Source of the DNA: Arabidopsis thaliana
Taxonomy: Eukaryota > Streptophyta > Magnoliopsida > Brassicales > Brassicaceae
Reading direction: 5' to 3'
Assembly: GCF_000001735.4 (NCBI RefSeq)
Contig: NC_003076.8
Span: forward strand, 14,883,835-14,947,834
Length of the DNA stretch: 64,000 nucleotides
Shown here: one piece after another, positions 643 through 64,000 of the stretch
Position numbering within the stretch: position 1 is the first letter of the stretch
Layout: the number at the start of each line of letters is the position of its first letter
The notes under the pieces: generated by a model
The model's input: the letters and a program-made list of their open reading frames with translations, nothing else
What the model was told of the DNA's origin: nothing
Database searches by the model: none
Position numbers and translations under genes: made by a program

Positions 643-1683
643 TTACACGAAAGAGTTGTTAAAGAGCAATATTAATCTAGGAAGGTTCTCAAGAGCCACT
701 GTGAAGAGGCCACCAAGAATAAACATCAAAACAAATGCAAAAAATATCCTCCCAATGTATTTCAGACTTTGCTCTCCGATTTCTGGTGTTGAATCATTTG
801 CAAAACCCTGCAAAGCAAACCACAAAACACTTCAGCATTTTCCCACAATCCGATAAACTACAGGGAAATCACATAACAAACGCCAAGTGATATGAAACCA
901 ACACCATAATCTCAAGCAAGAAGAAGTTTACAGTTATTTTACAGTCTACCAAGTCAACTGTTTCAACATTCTTCTGTTCCTTATCGAGCTCATTCTCTAT
1001 ATTCTAACAGACGTATGGTTCTAGTTTTTCTACACTCCTACTTAGGCTTTGACAATGAAAAGTATTCTAAGTATAAGTTAGATACTAAACTGTAATCATG
1101 CTAGCATCAACTATTCAGATATTTATAACACAATATCACACTATGAAGCTACTAACAAACTCAAGATACTTACCGTCGAAAATACAGAAGAAAACCGCTG
1201 TTGTCGATTGTTTTTCTCCGTTCCTGCATCAAAGAGAAAAGATTGGCATTAGAGTACATGAACCAAAGGTAAAGAGCTACATAATGCAGTTTGACAAGAA
1301 TTAAATTACCAGGTAGATCAGCATCAACAACTGTCTTCAACTTCCAACCAAGTCCATAATTCAGAAGACTAGCATTATCACCAAAACTAATAGGCTCTTC
1401 ACCTTCCTTTGCTGCTTCGATGTAAATCACTCGAGGTTTCAACGAACCAAGTTTCCTGTTGATCACAGAGACAGCAAACTCCGCCTTTGTCCCTGTTGTG
1501 AATCGGTAGTCTTTACCAGAAACTTCACAAAAAACCTCCAGAAACTAGTATACCACAATCAACAATGTTTTAGTTAACCAAAAACAACACTAGTATAAAC
1601 AAAAATCAACGAGAGTTTAGACCAAAAAAAAAAAAAAAAATCAACGAGTTAAGGAAACCTACAGGTGATGTATCGTCCACCAT
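643..1683 (-). CDS. Small plant protein with C-terminal membrane anchor (156 aa, 4 exons)
   Basis: Reading the minus strand, ATG at 1683-1681 opens a frame that splices cleanly as 1683..1663, 1544..1310, 1223..1174 and 807..643, all with GT-AG borders and consistent phases, giving 156 residues. The first two thirds are soluble and mixed charge. Residues about 122-145 form one strongly hydrophobic helix (IFFAFVLMFILGGLFTVAL), and the chain ends about ten residues later, the arrangement of a tail-anchored membrane protein. No signal peptide or catalytic motif is visible. I recall an unknown protein (AT5G37480) at this position but cannot assign a function. Sequence from 460 to 642 is its probable 3' UTR, and the 5' UTR and promoter lie between 1684 and about 2150. 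Exon structure is well supported; membrane topology is inferred. Confidence 0.85.
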
Positions 1684-2489
1684 TACTTTATTTGATCAGC
1701 CAGATGCATATAAGTTACTGCCAAAAGAAGCAAAGAACATAACAAATCAATATACTCAAAAACAAATCTTTGACAGAACACATTTGTCTTCAGAAATTGA
1801 CTTGAGTTTAGATCTAAGCCTGAGTTATGTCCGAACTAGATCATGATAAGATTTATCACTAACCAATTCATATCAAATTCTAAAATCGATTTTAAGCAAC
1901 AAAATGAAGTCAAATCTAATCTATGTGAAATAGCAAAGCAAGAATACGAAGGATCAATCGGGAAATTTTTACCAGGACTTGATTCTTTCCAGAAGAAAAT
2001 CCCAACTGCGAGAAGTGAGAAAGAGGATTGGAGTAAGAAGAAACAATCTTCGAAACCCTAAATTCTGAGAAAGAGGAAGATCGAAAAACAGAGACGACTT
2101 TGTGAATCCCAAATTATGGAAGATGAGTCAACTTAGAATCATTGACCAATTTAAACCGATTTTGTAAACCATGTCATAATGTATTCGAGTTATAAAACTT
2201 AACTTGTTGAACACTTGCGGCCGTACCAGTTTTTTTTTTCAGGATTTTTTTTAAAAAATTGATCTTAAAAATTAGCAAAAACTAATTTTAATGTAATTTA
2301 TCATGAATTTTTCATCCTGAAAAGACAATTATCAATTATGTATCTGATTTTTGTTTTTAACGTTGAATATTATCTTTTTATTTTTAAAAAACAATCAAAT
2401 TAAACAAAACTCAACAACAAAAATAAATTAAACACAACAATATAAACAAATTAAGTCTAATACGGTAAACCTTTTTGGAAGAGATAAGC
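1684..2489. other. 5' flank of the small membrane-anchored gene
   Basis: This stretch holds the probable 5' UTR and promoter of the minus-strand gene at 643-1683, including an A-tract at 1623-1641 just inside the gene. Short frames here have no supporting splice or family evidence. From about 2220 onward the DNA is plain AT-rich intergenic sequence. Confidence 0.4.
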
Positions 2490-3210
2490 AAAACAGCACA
2501 CCAGCATGTGTCACCTCCTAAGAAAAGCAAAGACACGAATAAAGGAAAAGCGCTAGATCCCCGGAAGAGATAGATCACCGACATCGTTCTCCAATATCAT
2601 AGAACTCCAAACCAGTAAACCCGAAATTCGTCATCAATTGAAGCCACAACGTTTTACGTAAGAACTCTAGAATCTTCATCCTTCAAACAACAAATTTTCA
2701 GAAACTCAAATTGGACTAGAGTTTCCACCGTTAAACAAGGGAAATTAAAATAAAATCCATCTACCCAAAAAACATTAATAAAATCGATACAAAATTAAAT
2801 TGAAGGAGAAAATAAAAACTAAATATAGATAACATCGGATCTAAAATGTACCAGATTCGCCAAAGAGATGAACGATGAAACTACTATAGAAAAGTCAGTC
2901 ATCGACAATGAAGAGACCGCTCGTCGGCCATGCACCACAAAGGCTGACTCAAGCTGAAAACAAGGCGCACATCGCCATAAAAGAGAAACGGCTGATGATG
3001 GTAAAAAATCCGGCTATAACCGCTAGGATAGCCAGTTGTTGTCGGACAAGAGCTAACCACCGCTACTGAAATAGCTATCGATGTCAGACCAGAGCCGAAT
3101 ACACACCGAACGACAAGAACTTTTTTTTATGATTTTTGCTGATTTTTGCTGAATAGGTCTAGAGGGACAACAAGGACAACAAAAGTACAACACTCTAGAC
3201 CTATGAATAT
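2490..3210. repeat. Retroelement-like non-coding repeat, family undetermined
   Basis: The segment is less AT-rich than its flanks, has no long open frame, and ends with a repeated GATTTTTGCT unit and a 12-bp inverted repeat (3153-3164 against 3193-3204). On the minus strand it reads like a non-coding leader or a non-autonomous retroelement. I considered a Sadhu-type or LINE-derived element but cannot confirm a family without a database search. Confidence 0.35.
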
Positions 3211-3682
3211 GATCCTAGCTGATTTTTTTTTCCTAGTTGCTTTCTTTTTTAATTTCATTACTTTTTTCTTAACACGGTTTAATTTCATTACTTAATTGCT
3301 TTGTTGTCTTGCCCGTCTTGCTTAAGTTCCTTACGTGTAAAAGAACCCAAAAACAACCAAACTCATTTTTTTTAAAACAACCAAACTCTTATGGTCTTTA
3401 GTTAGGTTCGATATTTTATATATCTGGTCAGTATAACAAGTAACAGAACATTCTACCAGTTTAATTAACTTGTACAAAAGTATTTTGCGGGATAAAACTC
3501 CATCACATCAATATATTCAGAGTAAATTGACACATTCTTAACCCTTTTACAAAAAAAAAAATTGACACATTCTTCTTTGTAACATTGACAAAAACTGAGA
3601 TTTAGTCCACAATAATTAACTACAGAACTAACCTCAACGAACTAATCAACTGAAAGTTCTTTTATTCCTTGAAAAATTCAAT

Positions 3683-3870
3683 GGTCAAAAGTTTCCAGTC
3701 CCTAGACCAACACAACTTGCAAATTAGACCTAATTAAACCTTCCTCATTCTCTCTTTTCCCCTAATTTTGACCAACAAATATTGACTTAGAAAAAAAAAA
3801 CCATTACATATAAATATAATCTCATCCCAACCCAAAATCTTAAAACCCAAGTCAATACTATTGACGTCAA
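3683..3870 (+). promoter_or_regulatory. W-box cluster, TGACGTCA palindrome and TATA box of PUB21
   Basis: TTGAC cores occur at 3683 (reverse), 3768, 3782, 3850 (reverse) and 3861, and TTGACGTCAA at 3861-3870 contains the palindromic TGACGTCA bound by TGA-type bZIP factors. An ATATAAATATA box lies near 3808-3818, about 95 bp before the ATG, so the 3850 and 3861 motifs may fall in the 5' UTR. W-boxes are bound by WRKY factors, so stress or elicitor induction is an inference. Confidence 0.55.
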
Positions 3871-3909
3871 CCAAAACAAAAAAGTCACTATTTTTGCATT
3901 TTACAAAAC

Positions 3910-5217
3910 ATGGGTTTTTTATGGAGAACGAGATCTAACGAGAAGAAGATAACTCCGGTTTTGAGTTGGCCGGAATCAGAACCGGAGTCAGAGATAACAA
4001 TTCCACCGGAGTTTCAATGTCCAATCTCGATCGATCTAATGAAAGATCCAGTAATAATCTCAACAGGCATTACTTACGACCGCGTAAGCATCGAAACATG
4101 GATCAATTCAGGCAACAAAACATGTCCAGTCACGAACACTGTCTTAACCACGTTCGATCAAATCCCAAACCACACGATTCGTAAGATGATTCAAGGATGG
4201 TGCGTGGAGAAAGGATCGCCGTTGATTCAACGTATTCCGACGCCACGTGTCCCTTTAATGCCATGTGAGGTCTACGAGATTAGTAGAAAATTATCGTCTG
4301 CGACGCGGCGTGGGGATTACGAGAAATGTGGGGTGATTATTGAGAAGATTAAGAAGTTAGGGGATGAGAGTGAGAAAAATCGAAAGTGTGTTAATGAAAA
4401 CAGCGTCGGATGGGTTCTTTGTGATTGTTTCGACAAGTTCTCGGGAGATGAGAAATTAACGTTTATGTTGAATGAGATTTTGTCTTTGCTGACGTGGATG
4501 TTTCCGATTGGTTTAGAGGGTATTTCGAAACTCGCGTCTGCGACATCATTTCGTTGCGTGGCGGGTTTGTTGAAGAGTACGGATGATTCCGTTCGTCAAA
4601 ACGCCGCGTTTATTATGAAGGAGATTCTCTCATTAGACGAAACGCGAGTTCACTCGTTTGCGGTTGAGAACGGAGTCGCCGAAGCGTTAGTAAAGTTGAT
4701 TCGCGATTCGGTTTCGTCTAGTTCAACAAAATCTTCGTTGATAGCGATTTATCAAATGGTGTTGCAAAAGCCTGAAATCGCGTCGGAGTTTCTCGAAATT
4801 GGTTTGGTGAGTATAACGGTGGAGATGATCGTTGATGCCGAGAATAGCGTTTGTGAAAAAGCGTTAGCGGTTCTTGACGCGATTTGCGAAACAGAACATG
4901 GTAGAGAGGAAGTGAGGAAAAATGCGTTGGTGATGCCGCTTTTGGTGAAGAAGATTGCGAAGGTTTCTGAATTAGCGACTAGGAGCTCAATGTCAATGAT
5001 TTTGAAGCTGTGGAAAACAGGAAACACGGTTGCGGTTGAAGATGCGGTGCGTTTGGGCGCGTTTCAGAAGGTGTTGCTTGTGTTGCAAGTTGGGTATGGA
5101 GAAGAGACTAAGGAGAAAGCGACAGAGTTGTTGAAGATGATGAATACACAAATGAAATTGATGAGTGATTGTGTTGATTCTTTAAAAGAGTTTAAGTATA
5201 TCAAAAAGCCATTTTGA
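3910..5217 (+). CDS. PUB21: U-box E3 ubiquitin ligase with ARM-like repeats (PUB21)
   Basis: A single-exon frame of 435 residues. A U-box occupies about residues 31-103, with the signature PPEFQCPISIDLMKDPVI and the downstream CPVTNTVL and IPNHTIRKMI blocks that form the E2-binding fold without zinc. The rest (about 120-425) is a run of alpha-helical armadillo-like repeats that typically select substrates. Proteins of this class transfer ubiquitin from an E2 to target proteins in the cytosol, and close relatives act in stress and defence signalling. Length and architecture fit the plant PUB20-PUB24 clade, and I recall this locus as PUB21 (AT5G37490). The ATG at 3910 follows a plausible TATA box and gives the full U-box. 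No substrate can be inferred from the sequence. Confidence 0.95.
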   Translation: MGFLWRTRSNEKKITPVLSWPESEPESEITIPPEFQCPISIDLMKDPVIISTGITYDRVSIETWINSGNKTCPVTNTVLTTFDQIPNHTIRKMIQGWCVEKGSPLIQRIPTPRVPLMPCEVYEISRKLSSATRRGDYEKCGVIIEKIKKLGDESEKNRKCVNENSVGWVLCDCFDKFSGDEKLTFMLNEILSLLTWMFPIGLEGISKLASATSFRCVAGLLKSTDDSVRQNAAFIMKEILSLDETRVHSFAVENGVAEALVKLIRDSVSSSSTKSSLIAIYQMVLQKPEIASEFLEIGLVSITVEMIVDAENSVCEKALAVLDAICETEHGREEVRKNALVMPLLVKKIAKVSELATRSSMSMILKLWKTGNTVAVEDAVRLGAFQKVLLVLQVGYGEETKEKATELLKMMNTQMKLMSDCVDSLKEFKYIKKPF

Positions 5218-5277
5218 CATAAACGACAGATTAGATTTCAACTAATAATACAAAAACCTTTGAAAGAAACATTGAAT

Positions 5278-5337
5278 CTTGGGGATCAAGCAAATATTTT
5301 GGGCCCCCAACAATGGTTAATTCTTGGGGATCAAGTC
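5278..5337 (+). repeat. Direct repeat of CTTGGGGATCAAG flanking a GGGCCC site
   Basis: CTTGGGGATCAAG appears twice about 46 bp apart, with TTTGGGCCCCCAA between the copies. TGGGCC is a site II type element. The pair sits just upstream of a TATAAAA box at about 5357, so it may be part of a promoter. Confidence 0.45.
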
Positions 5338-5468
5338 TCTCCGACTCTCCCCACTAATATAAAACTCACTTATCTTCTCTTTTTCTTCTTTCATCTCTTT
5401 ATCTATCTCTCAAACATTTCTCTTTACATATCCAAAATTTTTCAAAATTTTTATTTCTCTATAACTTG

Positions 5469-5648
5469 ATGGATCGTGTGAAATCTAATATTTGTTCGCA
5501 TATTCCTCTTATTGGGTGTGTCATGGACGTTCTTTTTCTACTTTTTACATCAGATTCTTCGAGTGACGCAGGCAAAGAAATTGTTGATACAGGTAATCTT
5601 GAAGCTCAGAAGAACTTCAGACAACTACAGTGTATTAAGCTCGGTTAA
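5469..5648 (+). CDS. Possible small gene, 59-aa ORF, function unknown
   Basis: An ATG at 5469 opens a 59-codon frame. It is preceded by a TATAAAAC box at about 5357-5364 and a long CT-rich leader that looks like a plant 5' UTR. The peptide begins MDRVKSNICSH, has a hydrophobic stretch (VMDVLFLLF) and an acidic and serine-rich middle, and matches no family I recognise. A CAG/GTAATC sequence near 5590 could be a splice donor, so the true product could differ. The region lies between the PUB21 3' end and the GORK 3' end. The promoter-like layout is the main support; coding status is uncertain. Confidence 0.25.
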   Translation: MDRVKSNICSHIPLIGCVMDVLFLLFTSDSSSDAGKEIVDTGNLEAQKNFRQLQCIKLG

Positions 5649-5760
5649 TTGCTCTCTACGATAAAATTATTTACATAGTCTCTATGTTTTTGGTGTAATT
5701 CTAAATATTATAAATTAGTGCAATAGCTTGAAATATATAATAACGTGATAGTTCTGCTTT

Positions 5761-5936
5761 TGTCTCAAAATGCTCTACAAGAACTCAAATGATTCTATGT
5801 GATGATCAAAAAAGAATCGAAGATTTGAATACTATGTTTGCTCTGCGATAGATAAATTGTGTCAAAATGCTCTAGAATATAAAAACCTCAAATGAATCAT
5901 CGGAAAAATCGAAGAGTCCATCATTATGTTTGATCA
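5761..5936. repeat. Imperfect tandem duplication (~97 bp) at the GORK 3' end
   Basis: The stretch starting TGTCTCAAAATGCTCTA at 5761 is repeated starting at 5858, followed in both copies by CTCAAATGA, then AATCGAAGA and ATTATGTTTG-like words. The second copy overlaps the GORK stop codon region, so one unit lies in or beside the GORK 3' UTR. Confidence 0.6.
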
Positions 5937-8900
5937 GTAGTATCACTGATCATATACAATTTGTGTCCATCACTAATCATATCAATGTCTGTGATACGAC
6001 CTTGGTCTTCTGATAATAGTACAAATGAGGCTCCATCCGATAGCCCTAGCTCTTTCGCAGCGGTTACTATGAGTTTCTCGAGATTGCTTGGGATCCAAAC
6101 CACAACTCCGTGCTTTCTACTACGCTCTTCTTTCGCCTCTTGCGGGTGGAATGGAAACACCGTGCATTTCCGTCTCTCAATTCTCTCCTCTGTTTTTCAA
6201 AACATAAATCAAATTCAAGAATTACAAGATCCATTTTTGAGTTGTATCGTCTGAAGGAAGTATACGAGTACCTTGTAATTCACGCAAGCTTGACGGGTAG
6301 ATAGACGACTGAGCATTTTTCACATCTTCGAGTAACTTAATCAGTTTCTTGTTTCCGCACAATCGGGCTTCATCAAGCGGAGAATTCCCCCATCTTCAAA
6401 GAGAGAAGTTATGAAGTCTATAAACTATAGTTTTAAAGAATTAAATGATTCATTTTGCATGATTTTTACCGGTCTTTAGAAATAACGCTTGCTCCAGCTT
6501 CAACCAACATTTTAGCCATCAAGAATAACCCTTCAGAAGCCGCGACATGAAGCGGCGTTCTGTGATCATAATCTTCACTGTTTGGGTTCATACCGCTTGA
6601 AAGCAATCTCTTGAGAAAATCAGAGTCGCCTTTAGCAACTGTCGTGCAAAGGAAGTTTCCTGAATCTTCTAAATTAAAGGAGGCTCCTTCTTTGACAAGC
6701 AAACCAATCACTCCTTCTTGTCCTGCTTTCACAGCCTCAAACAATGGTGTGTGTCCGAACTTATCTGCGAAAATTTGTGATCAAAAGCGTAAACATAAAA
6801 CAATGTAATGTTTTCCATTAGAACGATTCATATTTTACCTTTTAGATTGACATCAACACCTTCCTGAATAAGGAATAATGTAATGTCTTCATAGCCTCTA
6901 CATGCTGCAAGATGCTGGATATAAAAAAGAATCAAAGTTAAGCTCTTAAAAGAAAGATAATCGATAAGCGACAAACGTACAAGCGGTGATCTTCCATCGT
7001 AATCGGTTTTGTTAGGATCGGCTCCAGATCGGATTAAGCTCTTAAGCTGGTAAAAATCTCCTTGGAAAGCTGCACTGTTTACTTTCAATGCAAGTTCTGC
7101 TTCTTGTTTCCCAATGTGAATCACTATGTCAGATTCTAGCTTCTTTATCCTATCATTTGATTCCTTCTCCTGCCAAAACCAAGTTTGAGTGAGTTGCAAG
7201 ATTTCTCAATCGAGTTTCAAAACCCTAAGTAAGAGATAGAAAAAAGAGTACCTCCATAATATTGTTCAAGATTGTGCGTCCGTCGTGAAAATAAATCTCG
7301 AGGATGTTTGAGAAAGACTGTTTATCGAGTCGTAAAAGATGGCATAGCTCACAAACCCTAACAGTGAAAGGTTGAGAAATGTTGCAAATGATGGAGATGT
7401 CTCCAAAAGAAGTGTGAGGCCCAAGTAACGTCACACTCTCTTCTGATCCATCTGTTTTTGTAACAAGAGCCTCCTATAAAAATCCCCAAAAATTACAAAG
7501 TGAGACATACAAGAAGCAAAGATAGACACAAGCACAATGAGATTTTACGTACCAGTAAGCCTTCACAGACGAAATACAAATGATCCACGACGTTTCCTTG
7601 CTCTGTTATTACTTCTCCTGGAAGAAAATACTCTTCATGGAGCCTTATAACTATTTGATTAATAAACTCTGTGGAGCAGCCTTTGAAGAGAGGAACTTTT
7701 TTGATGTAAGGCAGATACAATAATTGCGCAATCTGCAAGAAAAATGTGTATTAGTTAGGGTGTCAATGCGCGCTAATCCGTCATGCAGCAGGCTAAGATA
7801 TTGAGCGGGTTATGCGGACCGGCTTGACAAAGATTGTGTTCCAAGAAACACTAACTCTAACCTAAAAAGTACATGAATATTTGTTGGTAACAAAACGAGA
7901 ATTTTGTTTTTATAATTAGGGTACCTTGGCGCGGATTGATGCTGGGATGTCCTGAAGCATGACAGTGTCGGTGTAGTGACTGTCGTACTGCAATCTAACA
8001 TGACCAGTTATCTGGCTACGAAGGTCTCTCCCGAGTTTTTTGCGGTTCATGAAACTTATGAGATCATTCATTTTATCTCTGAACCTCTCTGTGTTTGAAC
8101 CTTTCACAATCAAGGCAGTGATGTTACCAATAAGGTAAGCACCGAGAACCATATCAAACGAAACATATATCATCACGAATATCATTTCCCTCAGATTCAC
8201 CGCGTGAATGTCTCCATAACCTAAAACCAAAACGAAAAAAAAAAAACCCATCAATCTCTTTGTTAGTAACTAATTAAATTAGCATCAAAATAGAATTGGT
8301 TTTTATACCGACAGTTGCCATAGTGACAATGGCGAAGTATAGAGCGGTAGTATAACGTTTCCAGAGATCGATTTCTCGGAAATTCTCGTAGCTATAGTCT
8401 CCTAGCTTCAAGCTACCGATCCAAGTGTAACCTTCGTTTTCTGGAGGAAGAGTGGTGGCCAAGTAATAGAAGATACAAGCAGCAGTGTGAGTACAATAAA
8501 CTTCAACGAACAAGAGCTTTAAGATTCTAGTGAATAGATAGTTGATTCTTGTGTCTTTCTCAAGCCTTTGGAAAAACTCAACCACTTTGCGAACCCGAAA
8601 TAGCCTTATCCACAACAAGTACCTCACCAACTCATGTTTCCCTGATGCCTACAAAAAGGTTAGGGTAGGAGTATAAACCAAACCAAACCGAATCAGAACC
8701 AAAAATGTATTTAAATAACCCAATTGGTTTATTATTTAAACATCGAAATCGAAGTGAAACTGATTTTAGTGTAAACTAACCAAATGAATTGATATTTATG
8801 TGAATTTTATTTTAATTATATAAGAAATTATAATATGTGTTATCATATTAGATAAATATAATATTAGTTAAGAAATATTTTTATATGTTTCAAAGTTACT

Positions 8901-57059: not shown

Positions 57060-57305
57060 GAATTTTAATGGCAAAAATATCAAAAAAATCATGAAATTTT
57101 AAATTTGGGATGATTTAATCTTGAACTTCACGGAAGACAAATAAATCGTAAAGTTTTTTTTTTACTTTCGAAATAAATGACAAAGTTTGTGTTGACTTGT
57201 CATTTGAGTCATATCGTTAAATAGGTTAACAAAAACTTTTTTACAGCGTTAATGTCTTGTTTTATTTGCTCTGTAAGAACAAAACGACGTGGTTTATTGC
57301 AGAGA
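57060..57305 (+). mobile_element. Truncated copy related to the fold-back MULE arm
   Basis: This stretch parallels the left arm of the element at 62777-63396: ATCAAAAAAATCA, AAATTTGGGAYGATTTAATC, TTGAACTT followed by GAAGACAAATAAATCG, TTTCGAAATAAATGACA, GCGTTAATGTCTTG, and AACAAAACRACGT with TTTATTGCAGAGAC. It stops there, and no opposite arm is found nearby, so it is a partial copy. Confidence 0.7.
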
Positions 57306-57997
57306 CAAAACATATTATATAGTCCACATATAATTGGCCTTCACTTAAACATATTATAAATTACGCTAACATATTAAGCATATATTTCTTTGTGCTATAC
57401 AGTGTGGATCCTTACCTAGAATTGAATTAAATGGCATAGTGGTTTGCAATAAAACTGGAAGCTGGAATATGGTAATTTGATCATAGTGAAGTCACTTATA
57501 GTCTCCTTTTTTTTCTTTTCTAGTTCTATGTATAAATTACACACTTTTTTTTGTAAGAAAAATTGTTCATAAATATCCAAACATCAAACGGTTCATAAAT
57601 ATTCAAACATAAATCAATTCTAAACTCTAAACTGTTCACAAACGTCATAACATAAACCAAATTTGACTCTTACCAATTATTGATATGGTCATGGCTACTA
57701 TCAACAATAACCATAGTGAAAAATATGATAAATAATATATATTTTACGTGTCATATCATATAAAATTTCGCATGATTTAGTAAATTTAGGTATGAAATTT
57801 GAATTTTAAAAAACGATTAAGTATATTTTAGCACATAAGAAACTGTTAGGTATGAATTGAACACTTAAAATTAGATCGGGTATAAAATGACCGACTTTCC
57901 CACCAAAGAGTTGTGCATTTTCAAACAGCACAATGAATTCTCTGGATGGAGCCATCTTGTTGTTGAGACGACTGATAAAGCATTGGAGTTTTTGCTC

Positions 57998-61160: not shown

Positions 61161-62776
61161 GTCCGATAAACAGTGCTCCGTTTTTCTTTTTAAACCCTTT
61201 TCGTTATTGGGCAAAAAATTTGTTTCTGAAGTTTAAAATTTTAATGCTCTATTTTGTAAGAAAAATTGAATCTCTTAGAAAGACAAAAACAACTATATAT
61301 GATAATCTTAACATTAAACCAAAAAATAAAAACTATGTATAATATATGCATGGTAGATCAGCCTTGTTCGGGTTTTGAGTCTCCATCGACATACTAATTA
61401 AGAAAGGCTTAAACAAGTGATGCTACGACGGTGATGTAGGAGAGTCGCTTATTTTTTTCAATATATACTATATTTTAATTCTTGTATACCGGCAAGACGT
61501 TTTTTTTTAAATTAGTATATAGAAAATTATAAATTCTATTTGTTAATAAAATATTTATATTTTATTATTTACAATTGTTAGGAAGTAACGTTCTGCTAAA
61601 TTCGTCCCGCCAAAAAAATTAATATTGTCAAATATTTATATTATATAGTTTACAATTGTTATAAGTTATGTTTGTTGTTTACTTCAACTGTTAGTATTAC
61701 CATTAATTGGTTCTTTCTTTTTGGTTCATACCAAAAATTTCCTTGATCATACAAAAAAAAGTTTAGGTAGTTTTCTATCATATTTTAGATAAGTCAGATT
61801 TTTTCACGGAATTTTCCCATTAAAAAAACGATGTTATGAAAAATATTCAAAGAACTCATGAATGAATAAAAAGATAGATGATACTTATGTTTGATTTTTA
61901 ATTTTCATCAGTTTGGGTGGAAGACATAATTGAGAAAATAGAGTTCCAGATATTGATTAGGGTTTTCTTGGAACGTGATACAAGGAGAAAAATATAGATA
62001 TATAAGATTATATATATATATATAATTTTAATTACAAATAATATTAATTTTTTAAATATTATAATTTAATCGCTCTTCTTAGGAACCTAATTCTCTCTTT
62101 CCCCTTCTCCCTCTTACTTTTTCAATTAAGTTTCTTATTTTATTTTGACGGGACTCACTTAGAGTCTACCATTGCACTTACTCTAATAGACATAACATAA
62201 GAAACTCATACGATCAAGTTAAACGCATAGTGAAAAAAAAAAAATATACCCTAAATGATACAATATATGGAACCCAAACAATATAATTAAACGTATACAA
62301 AATACGTTATATCTTTGAAAAAATATGAAAAACCCAAATTATCAAATTAAATACACATCAAATAGTGGTTATTGAGAATAACAGTTGGAGTATCGAAAAT
62401 CTACAATGAAATTTGTCATTAACTGATTTAAGAAACAACTATCTCCAAAAACAATTATGAATTAATCTGTATTTCATAACTAATTAATAAAATCTAGTTT
62501 TTACATTAACAAAAGAGGGAGAATGAATAGAAGATGTGAGAGGAAAGAGATTGTAGAGTCATACACAGAAACAAGAAATAGAGAAAGAGACAAAGGCAGA
62601 ATTGGTATTAATACAAAATATATAGAGAATATCAGTCTTTTTTTGTTACGTGTTAGTTTTGCTATTTATATTTCTTTTTGTGATATTCTTACAAATTTCC
62701 CCTAGAAAAAATAATTTATGTATATGTACTATATATATATTTTTAATTAAAAACTCTATTCAATCGATTTAATTTT
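61161..62776. other. AT-rich intergenic DNA
   Basis: No gene supported. A frame at 62523-62705 has no recognisable similarity. A TSD copy (ATTTAATTTT) of the adjacent transposon ends this stretch at 62767-62776. Confidence 0.4.
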
Positions 62777-63396
62777 GGGAAAAATGTCAAAAAAATCACG
62801 AACTTTCAAATTTGGGACGATTTAATCTTGAACTTTACAGAAGACAAATAAATCGACAAGTTTTTGTTGACTTTCGAAATAAATGACAAGTTTTTGTTGA
62901 CTTGCCATTTGAGATATCATTAAATAAGTTAAAAAATTTTTTTACGGCGTTAATGTCTTGTTTATTTACTTTGTTAGAACAAAACAACGTCGTTTATTGC
63001 AGAGACGAAACGACGTTGTTTTGTCTTTTGAAACAAATATAAACCCTAATTTCCCAAATTGATTTCATTATCTCAAAATCAGAGACCCACATTGACCTCA
63101 AAATCGCAGATAATGAAATCGATTTAGGGATTTAGGGTTTAAATTTGTTTCAACAGACAAAACGAGCTGCAATGAAGAACGTTGTTTTGTTCTAACATAG
63201 GAGATAAACGAGACATTAACGCCGTAAAAAAATTCTGTTAACCTACTTAACGACATGACTCAAATGACAACTCAACAAAAACTTTGTCATTTATTTTGAA
63301 AAACAACAAAAACTATACGATTTATTTGTCTTCCGTAGAGTTCAAGATTAAATCGTCCCAAATTTGAAAGTTCGTAATTTGTTTGACATTTTTCCC
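62777..63396. mobile_element. Fold-back Mutator-like element (non-autonomous MULE), 620 bp
   Basis: The element starts GGGAAAAATGTCAAA and ends with the complementary TTTGACATTTTTCCC. The arms match over nearly their whole length, about 300 bp each, including AAATTTGGGACGATTTAATC, GAAGACAAATAAATCG, GCGTTAATGTCT and TAGAACAAAACAACGT, and meet near 63080-63120. It is flanked on both sides by ATTTAATTTT (62767-62776 and 63397-63406), a perfect 10-bp target duplication. Long TIRs plus a 9-10 bp duplication define Mutator-superfamily insertions. No transposase is encoded. Confidence 0.85.
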
Positions 63397-63572
63397 ATTT
63401 AATTTTCAAAACAAGAATATCAAATATTTTCCCGCTCATAGAAAATTTTGAAATAGGTGAAAGAAACAAAACAGATCTAACTCTCACACACTCTCACAAG
63501 AGCGTCAATTCGAAAAATTCACCAAACATTTTCGGTTTCTCTTCACAAAAAATCTCAAATTTCTCTGTGAAA

Positions 63573-64000
63573 ATGGGCGAAGAATCAGAAATCGCCATGG
63601 CTTCAGCAGATCGAAATAACCTAACCCAGAAAATCGCCAAGATCCTAAACGAGACTCGCACATCATACGCTACTCATAACCGTAAGCTAAAGGAGCTCGC
63701 CACAATCCGTTCAAAACTATCTTCATCTGAATCCGAATCCGAGTCCGTGTCTTCTTCTATTCTTCAATTCTCTTCCGTGTTTCTCAAAACCCTAACCCCT
63801 CTTTTCATCGCGGCTCAACGAAGAACCGCTGCAGCAGAGCGTGTTGTTCGATTCGTGGCGGAATTCGCTTGTCTTCGTAGTAATTCAGACGGTGACTCCG
63901 ATTGCGACGAGTTTCTAGAGGAATTTCTTAAGTTTTTGGTTGCTGGGTCTGTTGCTGCCAATAGAAACGCGAGATTCAGGGCGTGTCAGATAATTTCAGA
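63573..64000 (+). CDS. CAPG: Condensin subunit CAP-G, N-terminal part (runs off the window)
   Basis: ATG at 63573 opens a frame that continues past the window end, giving the first 142 residues. It begins MGEESEIAMASADRNNLTQK and contains helical HEAT-like segments, ending in AANRNARFRACQIIS, which matches the conserved region of condensin CAP-G in which the first HEAT repeats start. CAP-G is the non-SMC HEAT-repeat regulator of the condensin complex with SMC2, SMC4, CAP-H and CAP-D2, and it compacts chromosomes in mitosis and meiosis. I recall this as AT5G37630 (EMB2656), an embryo-essential gene. A second in-frame ATG lies eight codons in. The core promoter is short because a fold-back MULE ends only about 175 bp upstream. 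Later exons are not visible. Confidence 0.9.
   Translation, partial: MGEESEIAMASADRNNLTQKIAKILNETRTSYATHNRKLKELATIRSKLSSSESESESVSSSILQFSSVFLKTLTPLFIAAQRRTAAAERVVRFVAEFACLRSNSDGDSDCDEFLEEFLKFLVAGSVAANRNARFRACQIIS

Follow-up and report, generated by a model that had tools for sequence, protein, structure and literature searches.

A fold-back Mutator-like element upstream of the Arabidopsis thaliana condensin gene CAP-G, probably an old insertion that bounds its promoter

The DNA immediately upstream of CAP-G, the gene for condensin subunit G, folds back on itself as a near-palindrome, raising the questions of what this structure is, when it arrived, and whether it contributes to the promoter of the essential gene that it adjoins. 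We examined it within a 64,000-nucleotide stretch of chromosome 5 (G000:C5:14883835-14947834; hereafter “the window”, numbered from its first letter) and against the remainder of the genome. The structure is 620 bp long (62777-63396, unstranded) and consists of a left arm with tip GGGAAAAATGTC (62777-63073, + strand), a 34-nt spacer between the innermost arm blocks of the inverted-repeat pair (63074-63107), and a right arm that is an inverted copy of the left (63108-63396, - strand). In a global arm alignment, 258 of 298 aligned columns were identical (86.6%) with 24 gap columns, and the arm blocks of 120, 68, and 56 nt were 90%, 90%, and 89% complementary, respectively. An earlier note on this DNA had described the arms as almost fully complementary, which is a little strong, although marked complementarity does hold, and the observed identity lies far above the ~70% that the note had set as the floor for its reading; its description of the ends as exact inverted copies is accurate for the outermost 15 bases. 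The predicted RNA fold of the element reached -331 kcal/mol, compared to -112.4 kcal/mol (sd 5.3) for 20 shuffled sequences (z = -41.6). Both tips abut the 10-mer ATTTAATTTT (62767-62776 on the left, 63397-63406 on the right), i.e., a target site duplication (TSD) identical at 10 of 10 bases, for which the chance of a match at these exact, fixed borders is ~6e-6 given the local base composition.

This structure is not unique to the CAP-G locus. A search of the 119.66-Mb, 7-contig genome with the element returned at least 105 matching pieces on the chromosomes from the 40 of 117 candidates scored; once merged, these formed 36 clusters, one of which joins both copies in the window, so that full-length or partial family DNA occupies at least 37 places. 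Similarly built elements of ~610–650 bp were found across chromosomes 1 to 5. The second copy in the window is a truncated solo arm 5.5 kb upstream of the full copy (57070-57311, + strand, 87% identity, tip GGCAAAAATATC); the 10-mer on its left flank, GAATTTTAAT, recurs nowhere else exactly in the window, and a single 9-of-10 match was seen at 57801 within the 1.4 kb scanned downstream.

We next considered how consistently family members (designated here by locus number) are flanked by duplications. Twenty-two tip pairs were scored and 20 elements with both tips were retained for counting, to the exclusion of two alternative tip pairings (L044b and L039b, both without TSD), of copies for which a single tip was found, and of L067-L074. 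An exact 10-bp TSD was present in 6 of these 20 elements (the CAP-G copy, L003, L004, L039, L041, and L047) and a 10-bp TSD with one mismatch in three more (L002, L043, and L044), i.e., 9 of 20 with at most one mismatch, while four displayed a 9–11 bp duplication with ambiguous boundary (L045, L049, L054, and L058). No TSD was accepted for the remaining seven (L005, L006, L007, L008, L040, L050, and L053): L005 and L007 had just a shifted 8-bp match, and the left tip of L008 was missing. L041 and L054 share flanks and are thus not independent in the TSD and empty-site counts. Together with L042, they lie at 15.66-15.73 Mb on chromosome 1 (C1) with shared flanks that are 90–93% identical, and these three copies apparently multiplied as the DNA around them was duplicated and not through separate insertions.

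The identity of the family became clear from longer elements with the same ends. L039 is a 4,703-bp element (4.7 kb) whose tips are GGGAAAAATGTC and whose 10-bp TSD, ATATTAATAT, is exact and lies in AT-rich surroundings; its open frames match the DBD_Tnp_Mut, MULE, and SWIM families above Pfam cut-offs. Frames in L040 match the same three families, also above cut-offs, although this element has no TSD. Because the transposase frames of L039 are split over different reading frames, it was not called intact, and both it and L040 are described here as coding relatives only. Among the at least 150 matches of a genome search with PF10551 (150 of 292 candidates scored), none lay at the CAP-G element and none inside L039 or L040, where a direct scan did find the MULE domain. 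The terminal repeats of L039 are ~340 bp long and 95% identical to each other, those of L040 are ~300–330 bp long, and in BLASTN alignments both are colinear with the left arm of the CAP-G element. These repeats extend nearly to the transposase ATG, which lies just inside them; the distance from tip to ATG is 369 bp for L039 and 320 bp for L040. Identity between the CAP-G element and L039 is 79–80% over the outer 219–242 bp, with weak but colinear matches further in (53 bp at 70% and 46 bp at 85%, E ~1e-4); for L040, identity is 72–77%, with one piece extending to 297 bp. We take this colinearity to mean that each arm represents nearly an entire terminal repeat, with the sequence that precedes the transposase gene included. 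L039, only ~79–80% identical to the CAP-G copy over the outer part, does not identify the element that actually mobilized it.

Evidence that family members moved as discrete units was obtained by joining the flanks of 13 copies with one TSD copy and searching the genome for the resulting sequences (40 of 84 candidates scored). Paralogous empty sites with 73–85% identity across the joint were recovered for four of the 13 copies (L044, L058, L054, and L002). These sites are not all perfect: one base differs from the TSD at the L044 empty site, small gaps fall within the TSD in both comparisons made for L058, the joint of the L054 site is interrupted by a one-base gap, and of the two sites found for L002, one spans the left flank incompletely. 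For the other nine copies, including the one at CAP-G, no site spanning the joint was found among the scored candidates except the locus itself, as expected for the CAP-G copy because its neighbor gene is single-copy. Empty sites therefore document mobility for the family, with none for the CAP-G copy in its own genome.

Based on these sequence features, the CAP-G element is a non-autonomous Mutator-like element (MULE) in which two nearly complete terminal repeats meet tail to tail, an assignment that follows from the 4.7-kb relative with the same tips and a 10-bp TSD, which encodes pieces of a MuDR-type transposase. MULEs are described as having 9–11 bp TSDs and terminal inverted repeats of typically 100–500 bp (PMC3310237), which compares with an exact 10-bp TSD and arms of ~300 bp at 86.6% identity at CAP-G. 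The superfamily assignment is confirmed through the coding relatives L039 and L040 and the empty sites, and the claim of a fold-back MULE with a genuine TSD in the earlier note was thus borne out. The element also has the features of a MITE, in being short, non-autonomous, multi-copy, and flanked by an AT-rich TSD, as well as non-coding, as judged from its length and arm structure. Elements of this kind are well known, and the CAP-G copy is an ordinary member.

To evaluate when the fold-back arrangement arose, we built a tree from the 24 arms of 12 elements. The left arms of L001, L002, and L007 cluster together, as do their right arms, with moderate support (0.77–0.90), and L003-L006 show the same grouping of like-sided arms. 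This suggests that, within each of these two groups, the fold-back unit predates amplification. However, like-sided arms of the two groups do not join, and the pattern is not followed by L050 and L054, which keeps the conclusion at the level of each group and short of a single origin of the arrangement.

The age of the CAP-G insertion is a separate question, which the earlier note had answered with “fairly recent” from the intact TSD. In a tree of 11 copies, the terminal branch of the CAP-G copy measures 0.060 substitutions per site, similar in range to those of L002, L007, and L008 (0.051–0.058) and longer than those of L003 (0.022) and especially L004-L006 (0.011–0.013). Mutations accumulate at 7e-9 per site per year, at which rate 0.060 would correspond to a rough upper bound of ~8 My. 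At 16 of 620 sites the CAP-G copy carries a base private to it among the 11 copies, which yields a rough age of ~4 My, and at 42 sites it differs from the majority. An intact TSD is compatible with such an age, since all 20 TSD bases would be expected to remain unmutated ~30% of the time at ~6% change per site. Conversely, among the youngest copies, L004-L006, only L004 has a clear TSD, while L005 and L006 have none. The TSD is thus no clock in either direction, and a perfect duplication can be a poor guide to age, as the CAP-G copy illustrates. On terminal branch length we rejected a recent insertion: the dating in the earlier note was probably wrong, and the CAP-G copy is probably old. L004, L005, and L006, on chromosomes 2, 5, and 4, respectively, are 98% identical to each other, and this young clade suggests that the family moved much later than the CAP-G copy inserted.

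The relationship between the element and the gene can be examined from the interval that separates them. An open frame begins at an ATG at 63573 and continues past the end of the window (63573-64000, + strand). We call the gene CAP-G because the only match to Cnd3 (PF12719) reported across the genome falls on the same strand, 3.3 kb beyond this ATG (C5:14950720-14951382); the first 142 residues of the gene product matched no Pfam family, and we take the locus to be AT5G37630. The element ends 176 bp from the ATG, in agreement with the ~175 bp given previously, and 166 bp of non-element DNA (63407-63572, + strand) follow the right TSD, probably comprising the core promoter and 5′ leader. This interval has no match to TATAWA or CCAAT but holds CT-rich and CA-rich stretches, as well as an E2F-type site, TTTCCCGC (63428-63435, + strand). 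The E2F consensus is TTTSSCGC, which occurs twice in the window against 2.45 occurrences expected, i.e., without enrichment, hence the site is notable solely, and suggestively, by its position upstream of a condensin gene. A literature search on E2F and CAP-G in Arabidopsis found no plant paper, as judged by titles and abstract openings.

This configuration bears on the alternative in which a recent insertion supplied the core promoter of CAP-G. Such a scenario would fit the perfect 10-bp TSD, the short distance between the element and the ATG, and the observation that terminal repeats of Mutator elements can carry promoters (PMC3310237). Judging by their position relative to the transposase genes of the coding relatives, the arms of the CAP-G element may carry such promoters. 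If still active, though, these would point inward, with the left one transcribing through the right arm in the direction of CAP-G, and between the element and the ATG lie 166 bp of non-element sequence that include an E2F-type site. Combined with a terminal branch of 0.060 vs. 0.011–0.013 in the youngest copies, and with ages of ~4 My from private changes and ~8 My as an upper bound, this makes a recent, promoter-supplying insertion very unlikely. The earlier note had proposed that the element “supplies or bounds” the core promoter: the first half of this proposal is weakened by the intervening DNA, while the second fits better. The core promoter of CAP-G is therefore best placed within the 166 bp, with the element probably bounding and not supplying it.

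Taken together, we consider it very likely that the structure is an old, MITE-like element of the MuDR superfamily, composed of two terminal repeats tail to tail, that inserted upstream of CAP-G and bounds its promoter. Specifically, we propose that two almost complete terminal inverted repeats of a coding MULE became joined with essentially nothing between them, an arrangement that, from the trees, would predate the spread of two copy groups. One such unit would then have inserted upstream of CAP-G through MULE transposase presumably supplied in trans, creating the 10-bp target duplication, at a time that the trees suggest is long past. As inferred from position in the coding relatives, the element would in effect amount to two facing, decayed transposase promoters. 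Read-through RNA would form a long hairpin, of a type that commonly feeds 24-nt siRNA production and RNA-directed DNA methylation at the locus, and the likeliest present effect would be a small methylated island that limits the CAP-G promoter on its upstream side without supplying its core.

Production of siRNAs from the CAP-G element is plausible by analogy with inverted repeats elsewhere in the genome. According to Arce et al. 2023, as summarized in a 2025 review (PMC12595863), 634 of 885 inverted repeats in Col-0 lie within 3 kb of a gene, ~68% are likely derived from transposable elements, MuDR MITEs especially, and ~486 of the 634 near-gene repeats make 24-nt siRNAs. The MuDR-type MITEs of that set are likewise short, MuDR-derived, and within 3 kb of a gene, in very probably the same species and accession, and we regard these figures as a fair prior for the CAP-G element, the likeness being one of kind.

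A further possibility is that the element acts as a natural silencer in the manner of Mu killer, with hairpin siRNAs from its facing terminal repeats silencing coding relatives in trans. In maize, Mu killer is a known case of an inverted duplication of a Mutator end that silences its own family (PMC3440606): it comprises two copies of TIRA, the transposase-side terminal repeat, and the CAP-G element resembles it in its inverted Mutator ends, in arms that correspond to the sequence preceding the transposase gene, and in its strong predicted fold. However, each half of Mu killer includes ~1.3 kb of mudrA and its silencing activity has been shown (PMC3440606), whereas the CAP-G element, known from its sequence, consists of ends only, and its arms stop before the transposase ATG of the relatives. 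It is also decayed, just ~79–80% identical to the coding L039, and one of many similar copies. A silencer of the Mu killer type is accordingly very improbable here. We would give still less credit, as a long shot, to a dual role in which hairpin siRNAs from the element, as two facing transposase promoters lacking the transposase, target its own MULE family in trans, and in which the methylation state of the element, 166 bp away, tunes cell-cycle expression of CAP-G; if true, this would link transposon silencing to condensin dosage. Finally, a local inverted duplication or hairpin-primed repair product, which the near-palindromic structure alone might suggest, was ruled out for practical purposes by the exact TSD, the dozens of dispersed relatives with related ends, and the empty sites for four of 13 copies.

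As an old MITE-like MULE, the CAP-G element joins other described fold-back families. The FARE foldback transposons of Arabidopsis (Windsor and Waddell 2000, as cited in PMC3169594 and PMC4486113) likewise fold back and include a MULE-domain transposase in the family; the likeness of FARE1 and FARE2 to the CAP-G element considered here is one of architecture. The MuTAnT foldback MULEs of Medicago (PMC4486113) are also built of two nearly identical terminal repeats and have a coding relative as well as documented empty sites, but show 9-bp TSDs and TA-microsatellite targets, whereas the CAP-G family has 10-bp TSDs and AT-rich targets that are mostly not microsatellites. Against this background, the CAP-G element cleanly illustrates how a transposon can be pared down to its two ends, here beside an essential gene and in a host genome whose inverted repeats of this type reportedly draw in siRNAs and change chromatin. 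Any influence of a fold-back element on a condensin gene could be studied upstream of CAP-G, at a defined locus.

A few observations concern other members or neighbors of the family. Among the pairs of terminal repeats 4.6–5.4 kb apart, L043 was considered as a coding relative alongside L040 and set aside, as the four frames inside the element (of five frames ≥90 aa) were scanned and none matched a transposase. At this locus (positions 918-6285, G000:C1:12926917-12932284), 5.4 kb lie between family terminal repeats with a 9-of-10 TSD; one frame has a match to the auxin-response-factor ancillary domain that just equals the Pfam cut-off (E 4e-6), and a second has a sub-threshold match to COX2_TM, so that L043 is possibly a gene-carrying MULE. 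At L039, a single further, diverged terminal-repeat end (6131-6282) flanks the coding element immediately beyond its right TSD. About 3 kb from the copy L002, the genome also holds a MULE transposase domain match (G000:C3:17415368-17415652).
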